Positions 1 to 42,004 of a stretch of DNA of 51,034 nucleotides are shown in pieces. The translations under genes and the position numbers were made by a program. Position 1 is the stretch's first letter, and each line of letters opens with the position of its first letter. Source of the DNA: an uncultured Commensalibacter sp. (GTDB lineage: Bacteria > Pseudomonadota > Alphaproteobacteria > Acetobacterales > Acetobacteraceae); NCBI GenBank assembly GCA_946699565.1, contig CAMPDW010000017.1:1-51034 (forward strand), read 5' to 3'. The notes beneath the pieces were generated by a model. That model saw only the letters and a list, made by a program, of their open reading frames with translations. It ran no database searches and was not told where the DNA came from.

Positions 1-701
1 TATTAGTGGTTGATGATGATCCAAAGTTAATTGAAACGCTTACCGAACAATTACAAGAAAATCAAGAATTTGAAGTTTCAAGTGCGCACACGGTAGCTGA
101 AGCCAAAGAAAAAATATTAAAATCAGACAAACATTATGATGCTATTATTTTAGACGTGATGTTACCAGATGGCGATGGGTGTGATTTATGTGCTTATTTA
201 CGTAAAGAAGGTTGCAGAACACCTATTATCATGTTAACGGGCTCGGATGATGAGGCAGATGTCGTTAGGGGGCTTGATGCTGGAGGAAATGATTATGTAT
301 CAAAGCCATTTCGTATAGCTGAATTGCTTGCGAGATTACGTGCGCAAATGCGTATTTTCGCAAGTAGCGAAGATGCTGTTTTCACAATTGGTTCTTATAT
401 TTTCCGTCCTTCTGCAAAATCATTGCAAGAACAGAATACAAATCGGCGTATTCGTTTAACTGAAAAAGAAGCAGCTATACTTAAATTCCTTTATAGGTCA
501 GGTTCAAGACCTGTTCCGAGACAGGTTTTATTGAACGAGGTTTGGGGTTACAATTCAGCTGTAACGACCCATACCCTTGAAACTCATATTTATCGCTTAC
601 GTCAAAAAATTGAACCTGATCCATCAAATGTTACACTTTTAATTACTGAAGCAGGTGGTTATCGGTTAAGTTCAATTTCTGATAAAAAAGATGAAGAATA
701 A
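1..701 (+). CDS. OmpR/PhoB-family response regulator (5' end outside the window)
   Basis: DNA-binding two-component response regulator. The receiver domain shows the acidic cluster VVDDDPK at the very start, the phosphoacceptor Asp in IILDVMLPDGDG, the Thr switch in IIMLTGSDD and the conserved Lys in DYVSKPF. It is followed by a C-terminal winged-helix domain (LTEKEAAILKFL, then VWGY and THTLETHIYRLRQKIE, ending EAGGYRLSS). A GTG at base 6 can be read as a start, but the frame stays open to the window edge and the preceding codon is Leu, giving the usual LVVDDDP strand, so the real start lies upstream and the first few residues are missing. Only one base separates its stop from the convergent exonuclease gene. 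The partner kinase is not visible, so the regulon cannot be named. Confidence 0.93.
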   Translation, partial: LVVDDDPKLIETLTEQLQENQEFEVSSAHTVAEAKEKILKSDKHYDAIILDVMLPDGDGCDLCAYLRKEGCRTPIIMLTGSDDEADVVRGLDAGGNDYVSKPFRIAELLARLRAQMRIFASSEDAVFTIGSYIFRPSAKSLQEQNTNRRIRLTEKEAAILKFLYRSGSRPVPRQVLLNEVWGYNSAVTTHTLETHIYRLRQKIEPDPSNVTLLITEAGGYRLSSISDKKDEE

Positions 702-702
702 T

Positions 703-1500
703 TTATTGATCTAATTCAAGCATGATTGGAACATGGTCAGAGGGTTTATCCCAGTTTCTAGCTTCTTTGAAAACATATATATTTGATAAATAAGGACGCA
801 GGGCTGGGGTAATCCAAAGATGATCTAAGCGACGTCCTCGATTAGATTTTTCCCAATTTCTGCTCCTATATGACCACCACGTATAAAGTTTTTTATTTGG
901 AGGAATAAATTCCCGCATAGCATCAAGAAACCCTGTATTTATCCATTGGTTTAGTTTGTCTACTTCTATGGGTGTATGACTGACAACCTTTAAAAGTTGC
1001 TTATGACTCCACACATCTTGTTCAAGTGGGGCAATATTAAAATCACCAACTAAAATAGCATTAGGTTCTTTATTTTGCTTAAACCATAGGGTTGTTTCAT
1101 GAAGAAAATTTAATTTGTGAAGAAATTTAGGATTAATATTGGGGTCTGGTTCATCACCTCCTGCTGGGATATAAAAATTATGTAATGTTATTTTTTGATT
1201 CAGATAATTAAAATAAACTGCTAAATGTCGGCAATCTTTCTTATTACACCATTCTATTGAATTTGCATCATGTATTTCTAAAGGGTATTTGGATAAAATA
1301 CATACACCATTATAACTTTTCATTCCTTTGAAAATATTATACATAAAACCAATTTTTTTTATTTCAGTTAAAGGAAATAAAAGATCAGGAACTTTTGTTT
1401 CCTGTAAACATATTATATCGGGATTAGATATATCGATAAGTTGTTTTAGTAAAGATAATCTTAATCTTAAAGAGTTTATATTCCAACTTATTATACGCAT
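703..1500 (-). CDS. xth: Exodeoxyribonuclease III (AP endonuclease)
   Basis: DNA-repair nuclease of the exonuclease III/AP-endonuclease family, acting at abasic sites and 3' ends. Visible active-site blocks are RIISWNINSLR at the N terminus, CLQETKV with the metal-binding Glu, NFYIPAGG, LVGDFNIAP, RGRRLDHLW and the terminal SDHVPI with the catalytic His. I chose the ATG at 1500 (MRIISWNIN) because family members begin there; an upstream TTG-type start at 1527 would add nine unconserved residues. The length of 265 residues is normal. It converges on the response regulator with a one-base gap. A second, shorter EEP-fold protein occurs at 36.5 kb and is not the same family. Confidence 0.92.
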   Translation of the reverse strand: MRIISWNINSLRLRLSLLKQLIDISNPDIICLQETKVPDLLFPLTEIKKIGFMYNIFKGMKSYNGVCILSKYPLEIHDANSIEWCNKKDCRHLAVYFNYLNQKITLHNFYIPAGGDEPDPNINPKFLHKLNFLHETTLWFKQNKEPNAILVGDFNIAPLEQDVWSHKQLLKVVSHTPIEVDKLNQWINTGFLDAMREFIPPNKKLYTWWSYRSRNWEKSNRGRRLDHLWITPALRPYLSNIYVFKEARNWDKPSDHVPIMLELDQ

Positions 1501-1633
1501 TTGGGAGTTTCGGTTTAAAAGCAACAAAAGAAGTAAAGTATAATTAATTTTTTTAGATGTCTATTCAAAATTATATTATTAGTATTTGAATCGGTAGTGT
1601 AAAAATTATTAATAAAAAATTAATTTGATTTTT

Positions 1634-1653
1634 GTCCACTTATGGACTTGACA
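1634..1653 (+). promoter_or_regulatory. Inverted repeat abutting a TTGACA hexamer
   Basis: GTCCA-CTTA-TGGAC at 1634-1647 is directly followed by a consensus -35 hexamer TTGACA at 1648-1653. No good -10 box lies 16-18 bases downstream (the bases there are A-rich), so promoter activity is uncertain. An operator next to a promoter is an inference from layout only. Confidence 0.3.
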
Positions 1654-1823
1654 GTATTTTTTTATTTGGAGAAAAATAACCTTGTTTTCTGATTTAAAAC
1701 ATCCATATAATTAAAATACTTAAAATTCAATAGTTTATAAAAATTGCCTAATTTTTAAGCAAAACATATAAGCTCTTGATAAACAGCCTTTTATGTCCAT
1801 ATTTTAGATATTCATCCAGAGAG

Positions 1824-1832
1824 TTATCCACA
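1824..1832 (+). promoter_or_regulatory. DnaA-box consensus 9-mer upstream of uvrC
   Basis: TTATCCACA matches the DnaA-box consensus exactly and lies 55 bases before the uvrC start, about 15 bases upstream of a TATGAT hexamer (1848-1853). A single 9-mer of this composition is expected about once by chance in an AT-rich 51 kb window, so binding is not established. Confidence 0.3.
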
Positions 1833-1886
1833 AGATCAGTGGAGAAGTATGATAAGCCCTAGAAAATAAAAGGATAGTAGATTTCA

Positions 1887-3776
1887 TTGCAAAAAGAAAA
1901 ACAAAAAGAAGAAATAAATTCAGATGAAATAGAGTCGTTGGAGTCTGTTATTGGAGTAAAAGTCATTCAACATGCTTTAAAAACGATGCCTGTTTCGGCA
2001 GGTGTTTATCGTATGCTGAATGATAAAGGGGAAGTTCTGTATGTTGGAAAGGCAAAGAATTTAAAAAAACGCGTTATTTCTTATACGCGGTTAACACAGC
2101 TATCCGAACGTATACGTAAAATGGTTTTACAAACAAGATCAATGGAAATCATTACAACTTATACAGAGGCTGAAGCATTATTATTAGAAGCCAATCTTAT
2201 TAAGAGCCTTAAACCGCGTTATAATATTTTATTGAGAGATGATAAATCGTATCCATGGCTTGTTATAACGAAAGAAAAATGGCCACGTATCGATAAACAT
2301 AGAGGTAAAATTTCCAAGAAAAATTCATATTGGGGACCTTTTGCTTCTGTTGGTGCTGTTAATCAAACATTGGAATTATTACAAAAGATATTTTTATTAA
2401 GAAGCTGTGAAGATAGTATTTTTAAATTTCGTAAACGTCCTTGTTTATTATATCAAATTAAACGTTGTTCTGGACCCTGTGATAATCGTATTACAAAACA
2501 AGATTACGATCATTTAATTGAACAGGCTAAATTATTTCTTTCAGGGGAAACACATTTTATTCAAAAACAATTAGCGGAAGAGATGGAAAAAGCTGCTGAA
2601 AAATTAGATTTTGAGCGAGCTGCAGTAATGCGGGACCGAATTCAAGCGTTTACTTATGTTCAAACAAATAGTGTAATTAATCCCTCAACAATTGATAATG
2701 CGGATGTAATAGCTTTGGCTCAAAAAGGAAACTTATGCTGTATTCAAGTTTTTTTTATTCGGAGTGGTCGTAATAATGGAAATCGGGCTTTATTTATAAT
2801 TCAGTCAGAAGACCAAAGTGATGAGGAGGTACTTGATGCATTTTTAGGTCAGTTTTATGAAAATAAACCCCCTCCATCAGAAATATATTTAAATATAAAG
2901 TTAGCTGATCATGCTTTAATGTGTAAAGCTTTAAGTTTGAAGGCAGGGAAAAAAGTCCGATTAAATGTTCCAAAAATTGGGGAAAAAAGGGCTGTAGTTG
3001 ATTATGCCATTCATAATGCTTTTATGGCTTTAGATCGTAAACTTGCTGAAACAGCTTCGCAACAAAAGCTTCTTGAAGAAGTACAATTACTATTTCAATT
3101 ACCAAAAATACCCAAACGTATTGAAATTTATGATAATAGTCATATTATGGGAACGAACCCTTATGGAGCAATGGTTGTTGCAGGGCAAGAAGGATTTATA
3201 AAATCTGCTTATCGAAAATTTTCAATCAAATCGGATATCACCCCAGGTGATGATTTTGGGATGATGCGCGAAGTTTTATATAGGCGGTTCAATAAAGGGA
3301 AAATTTGGGATAAAAAAGATTATCCTGATCTTTTATTGATTGATGGAGGTGCAGGACAATTTTCTGCTGTTGATTCAATTTTAAAAGAATTAAATATTAA
3401 TGATGTTACATTAGTTAGTATTGCAAAAGGTTCAGATCGTAATGCGGGTAAAGAATGGTTTTTTACGCATGATCAAAAACCATTTCAATTACCCGAAAGA
3501 AATCCTGTTTTATATTACTTACAACGATTAAGGGATGAAGCACATCGTTTTGCAATTACAACACATCGTTCAGGTCGTTTGAAAGGTATCAAAAAATCAG
3601 AACTTGATACAATTCCAGGAATAGGTGTCAAAAGAAAACGAAGTCTTTTAAATCATTTTGGTTCGACCAAAGCAATAAAAGAGGCTAGTGTTTTGGATCT
3701 AGAAAATATATCTGGAATTAATCGAGCATTAGCAGAAACTATTTATGATCATTTTAGACTTGGTGTATATAAGTGA
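1887..3776 (+). CDS. uvrC: UvrABC excinuclease subunit C
   Basis: Dual-incision nuclease subunit of nucleotide excision repair. The N-terminal GIY-YIG domain (from about residue 36: [23 protein letters not shown]) makes the 3' cut. It is followed by a Cys-rich stretch ([15 protein letters not shown]), a UvrB-binding UVR motif near residue 230 ([15 protein letters not shown]), an RNase H-like endonuclease domain ([21 protein letters not shown]) and C-terminal helix-hairpin-helix motifs ([16 protein letters not shown]). At 629 residues it has about 20 extra charged N-terminal residues compared with typical members. The start is TTG, supported by AAAAGGA 12 bases upstream and by the lack of an ATG before the conserved domain. 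It stands as a single gene 107 bases before pgsA. Confidence 0.96.
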
Positions 3777-31431: not shown

Positions 31432-33641
31432 TGAATAAAGCACAGCAATTGGTAGTTAATGAAAGTTTGGCAAAAGAATTTGGTTTGTCAGCTGATGAAT
31501 ACCAGAAGGTCTTGTCGATAATGAGAAGGACACCAAGTATGACTGAATTAGGAATTTTTTCAGTCATGTGGTCTGAACATTGCTCTTATAAATCTTCCCG
31601 TGTTTGGTTAAAAAATTTACCTACTAAAGCACCATGGGTTATTCATGGACCCGGCGAAAATGCTGGCGTTGTTGATATTGGTGAAGGGTTAGCGGCCGTT
31701 TTTAAAATGGAAAGTCATAATCATCCCTCTTTTATTGAACCATATCAGGGTGCAGCAACTGGAGTAGGGGGTATATTACGTGATGTCTTTACCATGGGTG
31801 CAAGACCCATTGCCAATTTGAATGCTTTGCGATTTGGTAGTCCAGAAAATTCTCAGACTCGTCATATTGTCGATGGTGTTGTTCGAGGTATTGGTGGATA
31901 TGGAAATTGTGTTGGTGTCCCTACAATTGGTGGCGAAGTTAATTTTCATGAAAGTTATAATAGTAATCCATTGGTAAATGCAATGACAGTTGGAATTGCA
32001 AGAAAAGATCGTATTTTTTTATCCGTAGCTGTCGGTGTTGGTAACCCTGTTATTTACGTTGGTTCAAAAACTGGACGTGATGGTATCCATGGAGCAACGA
32101 TGGCTTCTGCAGAATTTGACGAGGATGCAGCAACTAAACGTCCAACCGTGCAAGTTGGTGATCCTTTTGTAGAGAAGCTTTTAATTGAAGCCTGTCTTGA
32201 ATTGATGGCAACGGACGCTATTGTGGCTATTCAAGATATGGGTGCGGCAGGTTTAACTTCATCTGCTGTTGAAATGGCAGGCAAAGGTGGTGTTGGAATC
32301 GAATTAAATCTGGATCATGTGCCTCAACGTGAGACCCAGATGTCAGCATATGAAATGATGCTTTCCGAAAGTCAGGAAAGAATGTTGATGGTTCTACGTT
32401 CTGATCGGATTAATATAGCCAAACAAATTTTTGAAAAATGGGAGCTTGATTTTGCCATAATTGGTTATTTAACAGATACGGGACATATTGTTGTTAAACA
32501 TCATGGACGAATAGAAGCTGATATTCCTCTTGCTCCTTTAGCTGATGAAGCTCCATTCTATAAACGCTCTTTCTCTCCCTATTTTAAACCTAAACCCATT
32601 GAACCTTTAAACATTACGATGGATATTGAAAGGTCATTGATTAAATTATTAGGATGTGCAGATCTAGCATCTCGTTCATGGATCTGGGATCAATATGACA
32701 GCACAATCGGTGGACAAACTGTTTATCGTCCAGGACAGAGTGATGCGGCAGTTGTCAAGGTAGAAGGAACGTATCTTGGACTTGCTTTAACAACAGATTG
32801 TACACCACGTTACTGTCAAGCAGATGCTTATCAGGGTGCTGCTCAAGCAGTTGCTGAAGCATGGAGAAATATTACTGCCGTTGGTGCAAAACCTTTGGCA
32901 ATTACGGATAATCTAAATTTTGGTAATCCTGAAAAACCTGAAATTATGGGACAAATTATTTCTGTAATTGAAGGAATAAAAGATGCTTGTAATGCGCTGA
33001 ATTTTCCAGTTGTGAGTGGAAATGTTTCGCTTTATAATGAAACATGCAATGCTCAAGGTGAAAATATTTCTATTTTGCCTACACCTGCCATAGGAGGTCT
33101 TGGGGTATTAGATAATGTTTCCAGAGCTGTTGGTAATGCTTTGAAGGAAAATTTTCAATTAGTAATAATTGGTGAAACAAAAGGTCATATTGGGCAATCT
33201 CTTTGGTTAAGAGAAATTATGGGACAAGAGGCAGGACCTCCCCCTACTGTTGATTTAAAAACAGAACGTAAGAATGGTAATTTTGTTCGTCAAGTGATTA
33301 ACCAAGGTTTAGTTGCTGCATGTCATGATATTTCTGATGGTGGTCTTTTGATATCAATAGCAGAAATGGCAATGGCTGGTAATATCGGTTGTACCTTGGA
33401 TGCTCCAGAATGCGGAATGCGTCCTGAAGCTTATTGGTTTGGGGAAGATCAAGGTCGTTATATTATTATGACCTCTGATTCAGATGAATTAATTCAAAAA
33501 GCCAAACAGCAAGATGTTATTGCAAAATTAATTGGATATACTGGTGGCGATTGCATTGTTATGCCTTCTGGTGCCATGATAACCATTATACGAATGAAAG
33601 CAGCCTCAATGTCTTTCTTTGAAAATTTAATGAAAGTTTAA
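31431..33641 (+). CDS. purL: FGAM synthase large subunit PurL
   Basis: ATP-dependent amidation of formylglycinamide ribotide. The 736-residue small form lacks the fused glutaminase and needs PurS and PurQ. Motifs: [99 protein letters not shown] and [19 protein letters not shown] use the ATG at 31431, overlapping the purQ stop; a TTG at 31428 would add one residue. Two bases separate its stop from the bolA ATG. Confidence 0.97.
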
Positions 33642-37249: not shown

Positions 37250-37291
37250 GTTACTTTAAGTAACTGGAATTAGTTTTATTGTGTATACAAT
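37250..37291 (+). promoter_or_regulatory. Two palindromes in the metC upstream region
   Basis: GTTACTT-t-AAGTAAC (37250-37264) is a seven-base inverted repeat around one base. ATTGT-gtat-ACAAT (37278-37291) is a second symmetrical element that overlaps a TATACAAT -10-like stretch. They end 23 bases before the metC start, a position where a repressor could act. No known regulator site (for example MetJ) is recognised. Confidence 0.45.
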
Positions 37292-37314
37292 TATATTTGA
37301 AAAAAGGTAAATTT

Positions 37315-38535
37315 ATGTCGCTGTCAATTGAAGAAAAAGCCGTATCTTATGGTTGGAAAGTTTTATCAACTTTGTTAACACAATTGGGGAGACATAATTT
37401 ACCTTTACCTTTGAAGGGTAAATTTGTAAATGAACCTTTAGCACGAGGTTCAACCGTTATTTATCCATCTGTTGAGGCTATGCAAAAAGCTAATATAGGT
37501 TTTTATAATCATGAAACCTTGTATGGAGCCATGGGATCGCCTAATCAACATCAACTTGAAAAGGCCATTGCTTTGATTGAAGGTGGAAGAGATTGTCAAA
37601 TTGTTTCTTCGGGATTGGCTGCTTGCACTGTTCCTTTGTTGAGTTTTTTATCTTCAGGTGATCATTGTTTAATTATTGACAGTATTTATGGACCAACCCG
37701 TCGGTTTGCTGATAACATTATGAAACGATTTGGGGTTGAAATTAGTTATTATCCAGCGGATTCTTCATTGGAAGAAATAGAAACTTTTATTCAAAAGAAC
37801 ACAAAAATCATTTTCACTGAAAGTCCAGGAAGTCATAGTTTCGAAATTCAAGATATTCAAGGAACGGCTAAAATTGCACATCGCCATAGTGCTAAACTTA
37901 TTTTGGATAATACGTGGGGAATTGGTATTTTTAAACCTTTTGAACACGGTGTTGATATTTCAGTGCAAGCTTTAACGAAATTTGCGAATGGTCACTCAGA
38001 TTTGGTCTTGGGGGCAATTACCGTTAATAATAATGAAGATTGGCATCAACTAAGGAATACTGCTGTTGCTTTAGGTGAAGTTGCGGGATCAGATGTTTGC
38101 TGGTTAACTTTACGGGGATTACGTACTTTAGCTGCACGATTAGAAAAGCAATCCATTACTAGTTTTAACCTAGCATTATGGTGTAGTAAACTACCTTTTG
38201 TAAAACGTGTCCTACATCCCGCTTTACCAAGTTGTTATGGACATGAAATTTGGAAACGTGATTTTACAGGAGCAAGTAGTGTTTTTGGTATTGTATTTAA
38301 AGAAAATATTAAAACAGAACAACTTATACAAATCATCAATAGTTTAAAGATTTTTTCAATTGGAGCATCGTGGGGTGGATTTGAAAGCTTGGTTTTGCTT
38401 TCTGATGGGGAAATAAAAAGAAATTTTAAAAGCAGAACACTTACGGGTTCAGCTTTCCGTTTACATATAGGGTTGGAAGATAAAGATGATCTTATTCAAG
38501 ATCTAAAACAAGCGTTTGAAAAAATATTAGGTTAG
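37315..38535 (+). CDS. metC: Cystathionine beta-lyase
   Basis: PLP enzyme of the Cys/Met metabolism family that splits cystathionine to homocysteine, pyruvate and ammonia. Visible: LARGSTVIYPSVEAMQ, FYNHETLYGAMGSPNQHQLE with the cofactor-phosphate residues, SSGLAAC, LILDNTWGIGIFKPFEHG, the Schiff-base Lys in VQALTKFANGHSD, and SIGASWGGFESL, the SWGG..S pattern of beta-lyases. I place the start at 37315, six bases after AAAAAGGT; a GTG at 37279 would add 12 poorly conserved residues. Length is 406 residues. Its last nine bases overlap the end of the comM remnant on the other strand. Confidence 0.93.
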   Translation: MSLSIEEKAVSYGWKVLSTLLTQLGRHNLPLPLKGKFVNEPLARGSTVIYPSVEAMQKANIGFYNHETLYGAMGSPNQHQLEKAIALIEGGRDCQIVSSGLAACTVPLLSFLSSGDHCLIIDSIYGPTRRFADNIMKRFGVEISYYPADSSLEEIETFIQKNTKIIFTESPGSHSFEIQDIQGTAKIAHRHSAKLILDNTWGIGIFKPFEHGVDISVQALTKFANGHSDLVLGAITVNNNEDWHQLRNTAVALGEVAGSDVCWLTLRGLRTLAARLEKQSITSFNLALWCSKLPFVKRVLHPALPSCYGHEIWKRDFTGASSVFGIVFKENIKTEQLIQIINSLKIFSIGASWGGFESLVLLSDGEIKRNFKSRTLTGSAFRLHIGLEDKDDLIQDLKQAFEKILG

Positions 38536-39878
38536 ATTTCTTTTTCTAAAAGTCAGAGCATCAGCAATACACGTTATATCAATTATAGATTCATTTGAGA
38601 GCTTAGTAATTGCTTTTGCTACTCTTAATAAATGTGTTGTGCCGCCTGCTGATAATCAAAGGTGTGAGGATGCTTTTTTAACAAAATTATCTATTTTAAG
38701 AGGTAAAATTAATTTAAATGTTTTTTAAAGTATTATTTAAATAATTTTGGCGTTTAAATTGTCTTTCTCATGATTTATAAACACGTTTAGCTATATTTAC
38801 ACTTTTTTGCTATTGACAATCGTAATGATATTTTTCGGAGGAACAGGTTCAACATAGGCAATAAGGTTTATACGATCAGTTAATGGCCCTGGCCATGATA
38901 TTTTACGCGTATATTCTTTGCTACATTTTGGAACACAATGATACTCTTTGTCTTATACCTCCTATATATCCGCACATCGACAAAGGTTCATTGTAGCAAT
39001 AAGTTGAAAATTTACTGGAAACGCTATTGATTTGTTGTTTGAGCAGTTAAGATGCTACTATTTTTAAATGGTTGATGTAAAGTTTATAAACTATTTCTAT
39101 TAAATTCTGATAATTCATTCAAAAATAATACGTTTGATATGCCAAACTTATTTTACTCGCTATTATTTTTATTACTCGCTCAATATAAATTAATTTTATA
39201 TAATTACCAGAATCATTATAATAAAATTTTATAAATTATGGATGAGGGTCAGTTGCTCTGTATAACGATTAATATTTCCTCTACTACTCTAGCTATCTTG
39301 TCTAATATTATTAGGATTTGTTGCATAATGACCACGAATATAAGTTCTATGTCGTCTTTGATACACTCGTGTATAATGAACATTTGGGACGAATAACCTT
39401 CAGGATTATATGAATATAGATAATACTCACCACACGCAAGAAACACTTCTGTTTTTAATCCCAATGCTAAAACAAATCAAATTTAATGAAGCACTAATTG
39501 TTATGAGAATAACGTCGGTGAAAGTCTTTATTTACCATCAAGATATAACTCACTTATAAAAGCATATTTTTATAATGTTTTATTAAATATTATATCTAAA
39601 GTAGCTAAAAGCTCTAGAGGAATAGAAAATCATAATGCGTACCCTTTTCTACAATATCCGCAGGTAAAAGATTAACTAATATATACTTGTAATTGACAGG
39701 TAATGCAATTTCTATTGAAATGAGGGCTGCCTTAAAACCGTTCATGAAATTCAGTTATAGTTGTACCGACAAGACCCACAATTGTATAGGTGGGTAAACC
39801 TCGTGAAATTAGGATCTGAATTTTAATAGAAATGCGATTAATACTAGAAAAAGCGAAAGCTAGAATTCTGATTATCAT
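38527..39878 (-). pseudogene. comM: Decayed comM (Mg-chelatase-like AAA+ protein / YifB)
   Basis: This stretch has no full-length ORF, but reading it leftward in shifting frames gives ComM blocks in the correct order. They are: IIRILAFAFSSI and ISRGLPTYTIVGL (39732-39878); ALPVNYKYILVNLLPADI and EKGTHYDFLFL (about 39620-39720); ISELYLDG (about 39530-39570); FLNELSEFNRNSL (about 39085-39125); FQLIATMNLCRCAD (about 38970-39010); KISWPGPLTDRINLIAYVEP (about 38830-38925); and the C terminus LSAGGTTHLLRVAKAIT, ending ALTFRKRNLT (38527-38655). Many frameshifts and stops separate them, and the P-loop ATPase region between about 39150 and 39440 is not recognisable. ComM is a branch-migration helicase of natural transformation. 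The remnant is about 1.35 kb against some 1.5 kb in intact genes. Confidence 0.9.
39242..39393 (-). other. Unassigned basic-protein fragment inside the comM remnant
   Basis: In one frame of this segment the conceptual peptide reads VPNVHYTRVYQRRHR then TYIRGHYATNPNN, a stop, and SSRGNINRYTEQ. It does not match ComM, whose P-loop domain should be here, but looks like the basic part of the secreted protein at 34.3 kb (IHYSHVAKH, RYRTVSYQTTSN). It may be the remnant of an inserted or recombined secreted-protein gene. The match is short and of low complexity, so chance is possible. Confidence 0.25.
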
Positions 39879-39906: not shown

Positions 39907-41172
39907 TTAATATTTATTTTCATTGGGACGATACAAGATACGCGCCCGAATAGTTCCTTCCAAATTTCTTAATGAACGTAAAATATTAATATCAGTTTCT
40001 TTATTTCCTTCTGTAGTCGCTTCTATGACGACATAACCAACATCACCATCTGTTTGTAAATATTGGGCGGAAATATTCGCATTAACCTGGGTAAAAATAT
40101 GATTAATTTTTTGCATAATGCCAGGAATATTTTTATGTACGTGCATATAACGTGTGCCTTTTAAACGGATTGGAAGTTGAACTTCTGGAAAATTAACTGC
40201 ACTTAAGGTTGAACCAATATCAGAATATTCTATAAATTTATTCCCAACCTCTCGTCCGATACGTTCTTGAGCTTCGATGGTTGAACCTCCAATATGAGGA
40301 GTTAAAATAACGTTATCCAAACCACGTAAAGATGATGAAAATTCTTCATCTTTAACTTTTGGTTCAGATGGAAAAACATCAATAGCTGCACCTAACAGAT
40401 GTTTTGATTTTAAAGCTGCGGTTAAAGCGTTAATATCGACAACTTGACCTCTTGCATTATTAATGAGAAAAGATCCAGGTTTCATCATTGCAATTTCTTT
40501 TTCACCAATTAAATTAATGGTTCCCTTATTATGTGGAACGTGCAAGCTAATAATATCACTTTTCTTTAGTAATTCCTCTAAAGAATTTACGGGGTGTGCA
40601 TTTCCATGATTTAGTTTGTCAACAATATCATAATAAAGAACATGAAGACCGAAAGATTCCGCCAAGATTGAAAGTTGTGAACCAATCGAACCATATCCAA
40701 TAATGCCAAGCGTTTTTCCTCTGACTTCCCAACTATTAACGCTACTTTTATCCCATAATCCATTGTGACATTCAATAGAGCGAACAAAGATTCGTCTTAG
40801 TAGCATAACAATCTCGCCCATGACTAATTCTGCAACGGAACGTGTATTGCTAAAAGGTGCATTAAACACAGGAATTCCTAGATTACGTGCTGTTTTTAGA
40901 TCTACTTGATTTGTTCCAATACAAAAACAACCAATTGCAATAAGTTTATCAGCTTCTTCCAATATCTCTTTGGTAAGTTGAGTGCGGGAACGTATACCGA
41001 TAAGATGTACACCCTTGATTGTCTTTTTCAAAGCATCTCCCTCAAGTGCAGTTTTTAAGTATGTTATATTGTGATATCCATTTTTCTCTAATAAATCGAC
41101 AGCACTTAGGTGAACACCTTCAAGAAGAAGAATGTGAATTTTGTCTTTTGGAAGTGATAAATGTGAAGTCAT
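39907..41172 (-). CDS. serA: D-3-phosphoglycerate dehydrogenase (ACT-containing)
   Basis: First enzyme of serine synthesis, oxidising 3-phosphoglycerate. The 421 residues follow the E. coli SerA layout. The catalytic domain has IGIRSRTQLT, IGCFCIGTNQVDL and FNAPFSNTRSVAELVMGEIV; the NAD site is GIIGYGSIGSQL; INNARGQVVD, AAIDVFPSEP and the catalytic His in LTPHIGGSTIEAQE follow. The ACT domain from about residue 345 (VHKNIPGIMQKINHIF) normally mediates serine feedback. It lies 23 bases after the frameshifted phosphatase gene; downstream is only the comM remnant. Confidence 0.95.
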   Translation of the reverse strand: MTSHLSLPKDKIHILLLEGVHLSAVDLLEKNGYHNITYLKTALEGDALKKTIKGVHLIGIRSRTQLTKEILEEADKLIAIGCFCIGTNQVDLKTARNLGIPVFNAPFSNTRSVAELVMGEIVMLLRRIFVRSIECHNGLWDKSSVNSWEVRGKTLGIIGYGSIGSQLSILAESFGLHVLYYDIVDKLNHGNAHPVNSLEELLKKSDIISLHVPHNKGTINLIGEKEIAMMKPGSFLINNARGQVVDINALTAALKSKHLLGAAIDVFPSEPKVKDEEFSSSLRGLDNVILTPHIGGSTIEAQERIGREVGNKFIEYSDIGSTLSAVNFPEVQLPIRLKGTRYMHVHKNIPGIMQKINHIFTQVNANISAQYLQTDGDVGYVVIEATTEGNKETDINILRSLRNLEGTIRARILYRPNENKY

Positions 41173-41195: not shown

Positions 41196-42004
41196 TTAAC
41201 TGTTTAATATTGAAATGACATCTTGTTTTAGGTTTGGATCACCTAAAGCTAATACAGATTTATTTTTATTTTGAAGAGTTAAAGGATTTCCTTTCCAATC
41301 GGTTATAGACCCACCTGCACCGTTTATAATTGGAACTAAAGCAGCCCAATCCCAAATTTTATTTCCATATTCGAAAACAATATCAATTTGCCCAAGAGCT
41401 AACAAACCGTAATTGTAACAATCACCACCCCAACTCATTCTCTTACATTTTGACAAAGTTGTTTCCATCGCTGATTAGGAGAATCTTCTAAAATATCAGG
41501 TGCAGTACAGGAAGCTTCAGCTTGAGATATATTTTTACATAATCTAGTGCCAATTTTTCCGCCAAAATTTGAAATAAATTTGCTTTTTTCCCCCTCTAAT
41601 CCAATCCAACGTTCCTGAGTGATAGGTTGATCAATTATACCAAGAACAGGATAATCCTTATATAATAATGCAATTAAAATTCCAAAAATGGGTTTTCCTG
41701 TTATAAAAGCTTTTGTTCCATCAATAGGATCAATTACCCATTGAAATTTTGAATGCGTATTTGTTGATCCATATTCTTCACCTATAATACTGAAATGAGG
41801 CGTTTCTTTTTGTAAAATATAGCGTATGGTTTGTTCTGATTCTCTATCTGCTTGAGTGACAGGTGATTCATCAATTTTGTCATCCGCATGAACTGATTGA
41901 CGGAAATAGAGACGAATAATTTTCCCAGCTTCTTGAACCGCATGTTCCGCAACTTGTAGGTAGGTTTTGATATTCTTCACAATTATTTCCTGATTTAAAT
42001 TCAA
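41196..42004 (-). pseudogene. Frameshifted inositol-monophosphatase-family gene, HisN-like histidinol phosphatase
   Basis: Two overlapping reading frames make one protein. The first (42004-41435) carries ESPVTQADRESEQTIR, the metal site IIGEEYG and WVIDPIDGTKAFITG, and stops just after QLCQNVRE. The second (41468-41196) resumes at RMSWGGDCYNYGLLALGQID with the C-terminal metal-Asp motif IWDWAALVPIINGAGG. The break lies near 41438-41446, where restoring one base would give an intact protein of about 268 residues. Both halves are otherwise well preserved, so the change is recent or an assembly error. The pattern matches the HisN-type histidinol-phosphatase group. It is upstream of serA in one likely transcript. 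Confidence 0.82.

Follow-up and report, generated by a model that had tools for sequence, protein, structure and literature searches.

The locus examined here raises the question of what fills the interval between two intact genes, serA (phosphoglycerate dehydrogenase; 39907–41172, minus strand) and metC (cystathionine beta-lyase; 37279–38535, plus strand), and what its condition reveals about the Commensalibacter lineage that carries it. The interval lies in what we call the window, the whole stretch of 51,034 nucleotides that was analyzed (positions 1–51034 of contig C17), in a draft genome of 1.92 Mb that is distributed over 29 contigs and rated 100% complete. A preliminary description of this DNA had called the region apparently empty, an impression that holds for open frames, the longest stop-free run in any of the six frames being 75 codons (at a GC content of 29.1%). 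It had also recognized a decayed comM gene on the minus strand from sequence blocks such as GLPTYTIVGL, LRVAKAIT, and ALTFRKRN; that reading is borne out by a frame-aware alignment in which these blocks are visible.

Profile searches recovered, on the minus strand of the window, the three domains of a YifB-type AAA+ ATPase in the order in which they occur in ComM. These are the remnant of an N-terminal Lon-like ChlI domain (PF13541; 39507–39818; E = 2.5e-4, under the cut-off), with five stops inside (one TGA and four TAA); an Mg_chelatase AAA+ domain (PF01078; 38836–39134) in two pieces that are both over the cut-off (38836–39036, E = 4.2e-12; 38994–39134, E = 1.9e-5); and the remnant of an Mg_chelatase_C domain (PF13335; 38545–38697, model positions 44–94; E = 6.4e-5), which falls below the family cut-off. 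In tblastn searches with the ComM proteins of eight relatives, the N- and C-terminal parts were recovered by all eight queries. A frame-aware protein-to-DNA alignment of ComM from the relative G003 to window positions 39875–38533 covers residues 3–493 of 494 with a score of 686, whereas 12 mononucleotide shuffles scored 27–38 and the opposite strand scored 27. Of the 435 codons aligned, 211 are identical, and the alignment requires 13 frameshifts and five stops, with 49 codons lost. The Walker A segment is among the lost codons and has no counterpart in the remnant, and the AAA+ core is thus not intact. The remnant therefore resembles the ComM/YifB helicase family (TIGR00368; PF13541-PF01078-PF13335) in its three recognizable, correctly ordered domains but differs from it in being broken by frameshifts and stops and in having lost Walker A. 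We conclude that 38533–39875 on the minus strand is a comM pseudogene; judged from its sequence, this remnant cannot make a ComM protein, given the frameshifts, the stops, and the missing Walker A segment.

Several other accounts of this interval were considered. The frame-aware alignment reveals no insert in comM, and a mobile element was thus rejected as the cause of the break. Profile searches of the genome detected neither a second intact comM nor a further PF13335 match, and its other two ChlI matches, considered as a second comM, correspond to Lon and RadA. The window contains no Rfam match, on which basis replacement of comM by a structured RNA was likewise rejected. That the remnant has acquired a new role, e.g., by encoding a short protein or yielding a regulatory RNA, is a very remote prospect: we found no evidence in its favor, and the lack of an Rfam match in the window, the short stop-free runs, and an excess of changes at the first two codon positions (see below) all speak against it.

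The state of this locus in relatives places the lesions in context. A tree of seven concatenated proteins (with serA absent for G005, metC for G008, and topA for G006) groups our genome, the smallest of the nine genomes of the genus, as sister to G003 and G004, two genomes of 2.0 Mb each; among named genomes, the best matches to its serA protein are those of Commensalibacter communis, C. papalotli, and C. intestini (82–85% identity). An open comM frame of 492–501 residues over the C-terminal domain is found in all eight other Commensalibacter genomes, and the serA–metC interval of the three named species holds an open comM of 491–496 residues, i.e., the intact copy that the preliminary description had proposed to seek there. 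The gene is flanked by both serA and metC in six of the eight relatives and by one of the two in the others, such that each flanking gene adjoins comM in seven, as both do in our genome, where metC is convergent with comM. Within an 18-kb stretch around comM, serA was not found in G005 and metC was not found in G008, pointing to local rearrangement or gene loss. Intact ComM copies of distant genus members share 64–74% identity.

Three further genes of the transformation pathway are broken in this genome, and all three lie on two contigs other than that of comM. The relative G004, which is open in comM, comEC, dprA, and comF, served as reference. Its ComM orthologue scores 513 bits against TIGR00368 (cut-off 362), and its DprA is over the cut-off of TIGR00732; its ComEC exceeds the cut-off of TIGR00360, a model of the N-terminal domain, but is under the NCBIfam cut-off of the full-length model TIGR00361, and its ComF has TIGR00201 as best match, yet under the NCBIfam cut-off. 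comEC is open in seven of the eight relatives and persists here only as fragments with stops; relative to G004, it carries nine frameshifts and 13 stops and has lost 150 codons, lesions that disable the DNA channel. dprA, also open in seven of eight relatives, is reduced to fragments (seven frameshifts and three stops relative to G004). A profile search for DZR_2, the zinc-finger domain of comF, found it in all eight relatives and not in our genome; a comF remnant with four frameshifts and nine stops relative to G004 is located on contig C14, next to a decayed yjbQ and an intact gene that we read as trpS. By the same comparison, comM has 13 frameshifts and five stops. RadA, the general recombination helicase, retains an open frame of 461 residues.

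When the four com genes of each of the eight relatives were put through the same lesion test (with G004 also compared to itself), 28 of the 32 cases showed neither a frameshift nor a stop. The exceptions are comEC of G003, and dprA and comF of G008, with one frameshift each, and dprA of G006 with two. The two frameshifts in G006 were taken as an alignment artefact, since the frame is open over 403 residues. Those in G003 (L096) and G008 (L097 and L104) may mark the onset of independent losses or may be errors of sequencing.

In an effort to determine how selective this decay is, we took the stretches of G004 that correspond to ours and compared their open reading frames of at least 120 residues, gene by gene, with the window, 35 kb of contig C16, and 20 kb of contig C14 (≈106 kb), scoring an orthologue as intact where at least 80% of it is covered by a single frame in our genome. 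Of 87 such frames, 18 were dropped (16 without a counterpart and two at an edge), leaving 69 that are testable. (A cruder first pass with a limit of 100 residues flagged more genes, with stops in probably over-long starts or in short, doubtful frames, and the stricter pass is used instead.) Sixty-three of the 69 are intact, and the six that are broken are comM, comEC, dprA, comF, yjbQ, and hisN; the chance of finding all four com genes among six of 69 is P = 1.7e-5, a figure to be read with the knowledge that the C16 and C14 stretches were picked for holding com genes, and that the other 65 orthologues are their neighbors rather than a random sample. The decay mainly strikes the transformation pathway and is not the product of sequencing error.

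Errors of sequencing or assembly that break an otherwise intact comM might be suspected in a draft assembly, particularly as the nearby hisN is split by a single frameshift. For comM itself, this is refuted by the number of lesions (13 frameshifts, five stops, and 49 lost codons, at 48% identity to G004) next to flanking genes that are well conserved (serA, 90%; metC, 77%) and have no frameshift. The high proportion of intact orthologues and the similar decay of comEC, dprA, and comF on two other contigs point the same way, and we give this explanation next to no credence.

The lesions, taken together with the intact neighbors, exclude sequencing error as their origin and make general erosion a poorer explanation. 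In that reading, a reduced insect-symbiont genome is decaying at large, and the com genes were struck by chance. The genome is small for the genus, as noted above, and the GC content is 32.3% in the window versus 36.5% in the matching stretches of G004, consistent with a shift toward AT in this lineage. Damage to yjbQ, hisN, and lon further indicates that decay is not confined to the transformation pathway. Nonetheless, all four transformation genes tested are among the six that are not intact in the ≈106 kb surveyed (two of the three stretches having been picked for com genes), and each has many lesions, whereas hisN and lon have one each. We regard chance erosion as improbable.

The three genes outside the pathway differ in condition. 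hisN (histidinol-phosphatase; window 41196–42004, minus strand) consists of two overlapping frames separated by one frameshift, with no run of more than four bases around the break, and is either a young pseudogene or a sequencing error. lon (contig C26, L091 positions 599–3073, minus strand) is divided into frames of 348 and 422 residues by a single in-frame stop that lies just ahead of the segment with Walker A. yjbQ (TIGR00149; contig positions 33279–33626, within L117, which is C14:22001–42000), adjoining the comF remnant, is decayed, with three stops in its best match.

The extent of sequence divergence has to be interpreted gene by gene. The difference from G004 at second codon positions is 0.20–0.27 for comM, comEC, and dprA, 0.072 for hisN, and 0.03–0.10 for six intact controls; part of the excess in comEC and dprA reflects ordinary fast evolution, as open copies in the six non-sister relatives are 46–50% (comEC) and 52–61% (dprA) identical to G004, and 48–52% in the case of comF. 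Because these three genes evolve fast even where they are open, low identity alone proves nothing for them, and the case for their decay rests on the stops and frameshifts that we read in the remnants. The names gltX, pyrB, pyrC, plsY, topA, and trpS, which we use for control and neighboring genes, are our own reading of the sequences.

To evaluate constraint, changes at the first two codon positions on the branch leading to our genome were divided by those on the branch of its sister G004, with two or three outgroups. This ratio is 3.5–7.7 for comM (six estimates) and 0.9–1.4 for the controls topA, metC, and plsY (eight estimates), with bootstrap ranges that barely overlap (lowest comM bound, 2.20; highest control bound, 2.55). 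Constraint on comM is thus relaxed. The ratios for comEC (1.7–2.3), dprA (2.2–2.5), and comF (1.6–2.3) have bootstrap ranges that overlap those of the controls. A crude conversion to the unconstrained share of our genome's own branch returns 1.08 for comM, 0.55 for dprA, 0.53 for comF, 0.41 for comEC, and 0.08 for hisN; these ages are only rough, as third positions are near saturation and the comM fraction exceeds 1, and for the same reasons a precise dating of the losses was rejected. With this reservation, comM looks to have been free of constraint during much of the period after its lineage parted from the nearest relatives, and its rough age differs from those of the other three genes (about all versus about half of the branch), a hint that comM was lost first among the four.

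Two claims of the preliminary description are affected by these results. It had taken the readability of the relic as a sign that the loss is moderately recent, a view that finds no support here, since the ratios set comM apart from the controls and the rough branch figures, with comM unconstrained over about the whole branch, speak against a recent loss; that the relic can still be read may be owed more to the slow evolution of ComM, apparent from the identity of intact copies given above, than to recency. It had also proposed that efficient transformation has probably been lost. On comM alone, this was a guess, and loss of comM by itself was rejected as proof of nontransformability, as Acinetobacter baumannii strains without comM still transform measurably, by the account given in PMC11472951, whereas inactivation of comEC there brings transformation below the assay threshold. 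With decay also seen in comEC, dprA, and comF, the proposal now has good support.

We therefore consider it very probable that comM is one of four genes for the intracellular part of the transformation pathway (ComEC, ComF, DprA, and ComM), a part that was released from selection as a whole, with all four genes decaying in place. In the relatives the orthologues are open or nearly so; in our genome the neighboring genes are mostly intact, and comM has a clear excess of changes at constrained codon positions. In the proposed sequence of events, use of the pathway would have been lost in this Commensalibacter lineage, lifting selection on all four genes, which would then have decayed through small indels, stops, and deletions in a genome that drifted toward AT. 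ComEC would form the inner-membrane DNA channel, ComF would handle single-stranded DNA behind that channel, and ComM would drive branch migration. DprA loads RecA on incoming single-stranded DNA. Retention of an open RadA is what would be expected if general recombination is kept. These roles in the genus Commensalibacter, like the inability of the lineage to be transformed, are inferred, and for our species, represented by one genome, loss of natural transformation is the most likely outcome on the basis of its gene content.

We then placed the four genes in the context of the family, using 248 genomes of Acetobacteraceae (ours included), each at least 95% complete. PF13335 matches 244 of the 248, 242 of them over the cut-off. 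Among the 248, a ComM match was not found in G077, G148, G230, and G232; a ComEC match was not found in these same four or in G044, G067, G075, and G192; and a DprA match was not found in G067, G077, and G230. All four genomes without ComM thus lack ComEC (P = 4.6e-7), as do all three without DprA (P = 2.2e-5), with P values that ignore relatedness and losses that may include draft gaps. Without G077, which is 7% contaminated, and our own genome, P becomes 1.4e-5 for ComM and 7e-4 for DprA. The coupling is one-way, as G044, G075, and G192 lack ComEC yet have ComM and DprA matches.

The DNA-uptake machinery upstream of this pathway is less evident in the genus. PF00437, which comprises the ATPases of type IV and Tad pili and related systems, is over the cut-off only in G005 among the nine genus genomes, a match that we would guess to be a conjugation ATPase, and the ComEA-type HHH_3 domain was not found in any of the nine; transformation in the intact relatives is therefore itself unproved. 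ComEC, DprA, ComF, and ComM might then share some job other than transformation, and it would be that job that was lost. The relatives keep all four genes although a recognized pilus ATPase is lacking in eight of nine genomes and HHH_3 in all nine; across the family, genomes that have lost ComM or DprA have lost ComEC too; and in Piscirickettsia, com genes that persist although comEC is not intact are described as having other effects (PMC12955456). Against this, the proteins have been characterized elsewhere for their part in transformation, which in Vibrio cholerae is, as far as PMC11612176 describes it, the sole role of ComM, and receptors or pili beyond the reach of the PF00437 and HHH_3 models may exist. 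Another joint job is in our estimation unlikely, if more plausible than erosion by chance, and release of the transformation pathway from selection is the reading we retain. A more speculative extension of it, which we put forward tentatively as less likely than not, is that in acetic acid bacteria like Commensalibacter, ComEC, ComF, DprA, and ComM make up a single self-sufficient module, which operates with neither ComEA nor the ATPase of a type IV or Tad pilus and which lineages retain or lose as a whole. In our lineage the discard would be far advanced, and G008 (dprA and comF) and G003 (comEC) may be at its first step.

These findings fit a wider picture drawn from published work. ComM is described as a transformation-specific branch-migration helicase of Gram-negative bacteria (PMC11612176; PMC11784430), ComFC links transport to the handling of single-stranded DNA (PMC9005727), ComEC is the DNA channel (PMC12955456), and DprA is required for transformation in Riemerella (PMC6533540). 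ComEC-domain proteins have been lost in Buchnera, Wigglesworthia, Kinetoplastibacterium, Blattabacterium, and most of Rickettsia, Francisella, and Coxiella (PMC6299819). Our lineage, like these, is host-associated and has lost the DNA channel; it differs in that four genes can still be read as relics, with G004, a member of the sister pair, open in all four. Piscirickettsia salmonis, too, is a host-associated bacterium with a broken comEC, but there transposable elements cause the break and comEA, comM, and dprA are kept (PMC12955456), whereas here the lesions are small and comM, dprA, and comF are gone as well. Inactivation of comM is shared with A. baumannii, in which comM is hit mostly by mobile elements and within the species, and other transformation genes are rarely inactivated (PMC11472951); in our genome the comM alignment shows no insert, and decay extends to three other genes.

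Commensalibacter is a genus of the insect gut in which one species with a reduced genome is already known (PMC10149009), and the main text of that genus comparison does not use the words competence, transformation, or pseudogene. Among the matches listed in searches of the open literature, we found neither a transformation test of this organism or its genus nor a report of competence-gene loss in Commensalibacter. Host-bound bacteria are already known to lose competence genes; what is new is a Commensalibacter case in which four relics can still be read and a relative, G004, is open in all four genes. A remark on one gene becomes a natural knockout at the level of a pathway, with ComEC, ComF, DprA, and ComM lost beside a close relative that keeps them. 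This pair allows one to test whether the four genes have a single shared function in bacteria without a recognized competence pilus, and what effect loss of transformation has on genome content in an insect-gut genus.

Finally, the gap between serA and comM varies in the genus. An additional open reading frame of 209–215 residues is located there in C. communis (7343–7972 in L008) and in C. papalotli (7328–7975 in L009). For C. intestini (L010), no frame of 100 residues or more is listed in this gap, and in the window no frame there reaches 80 residues.
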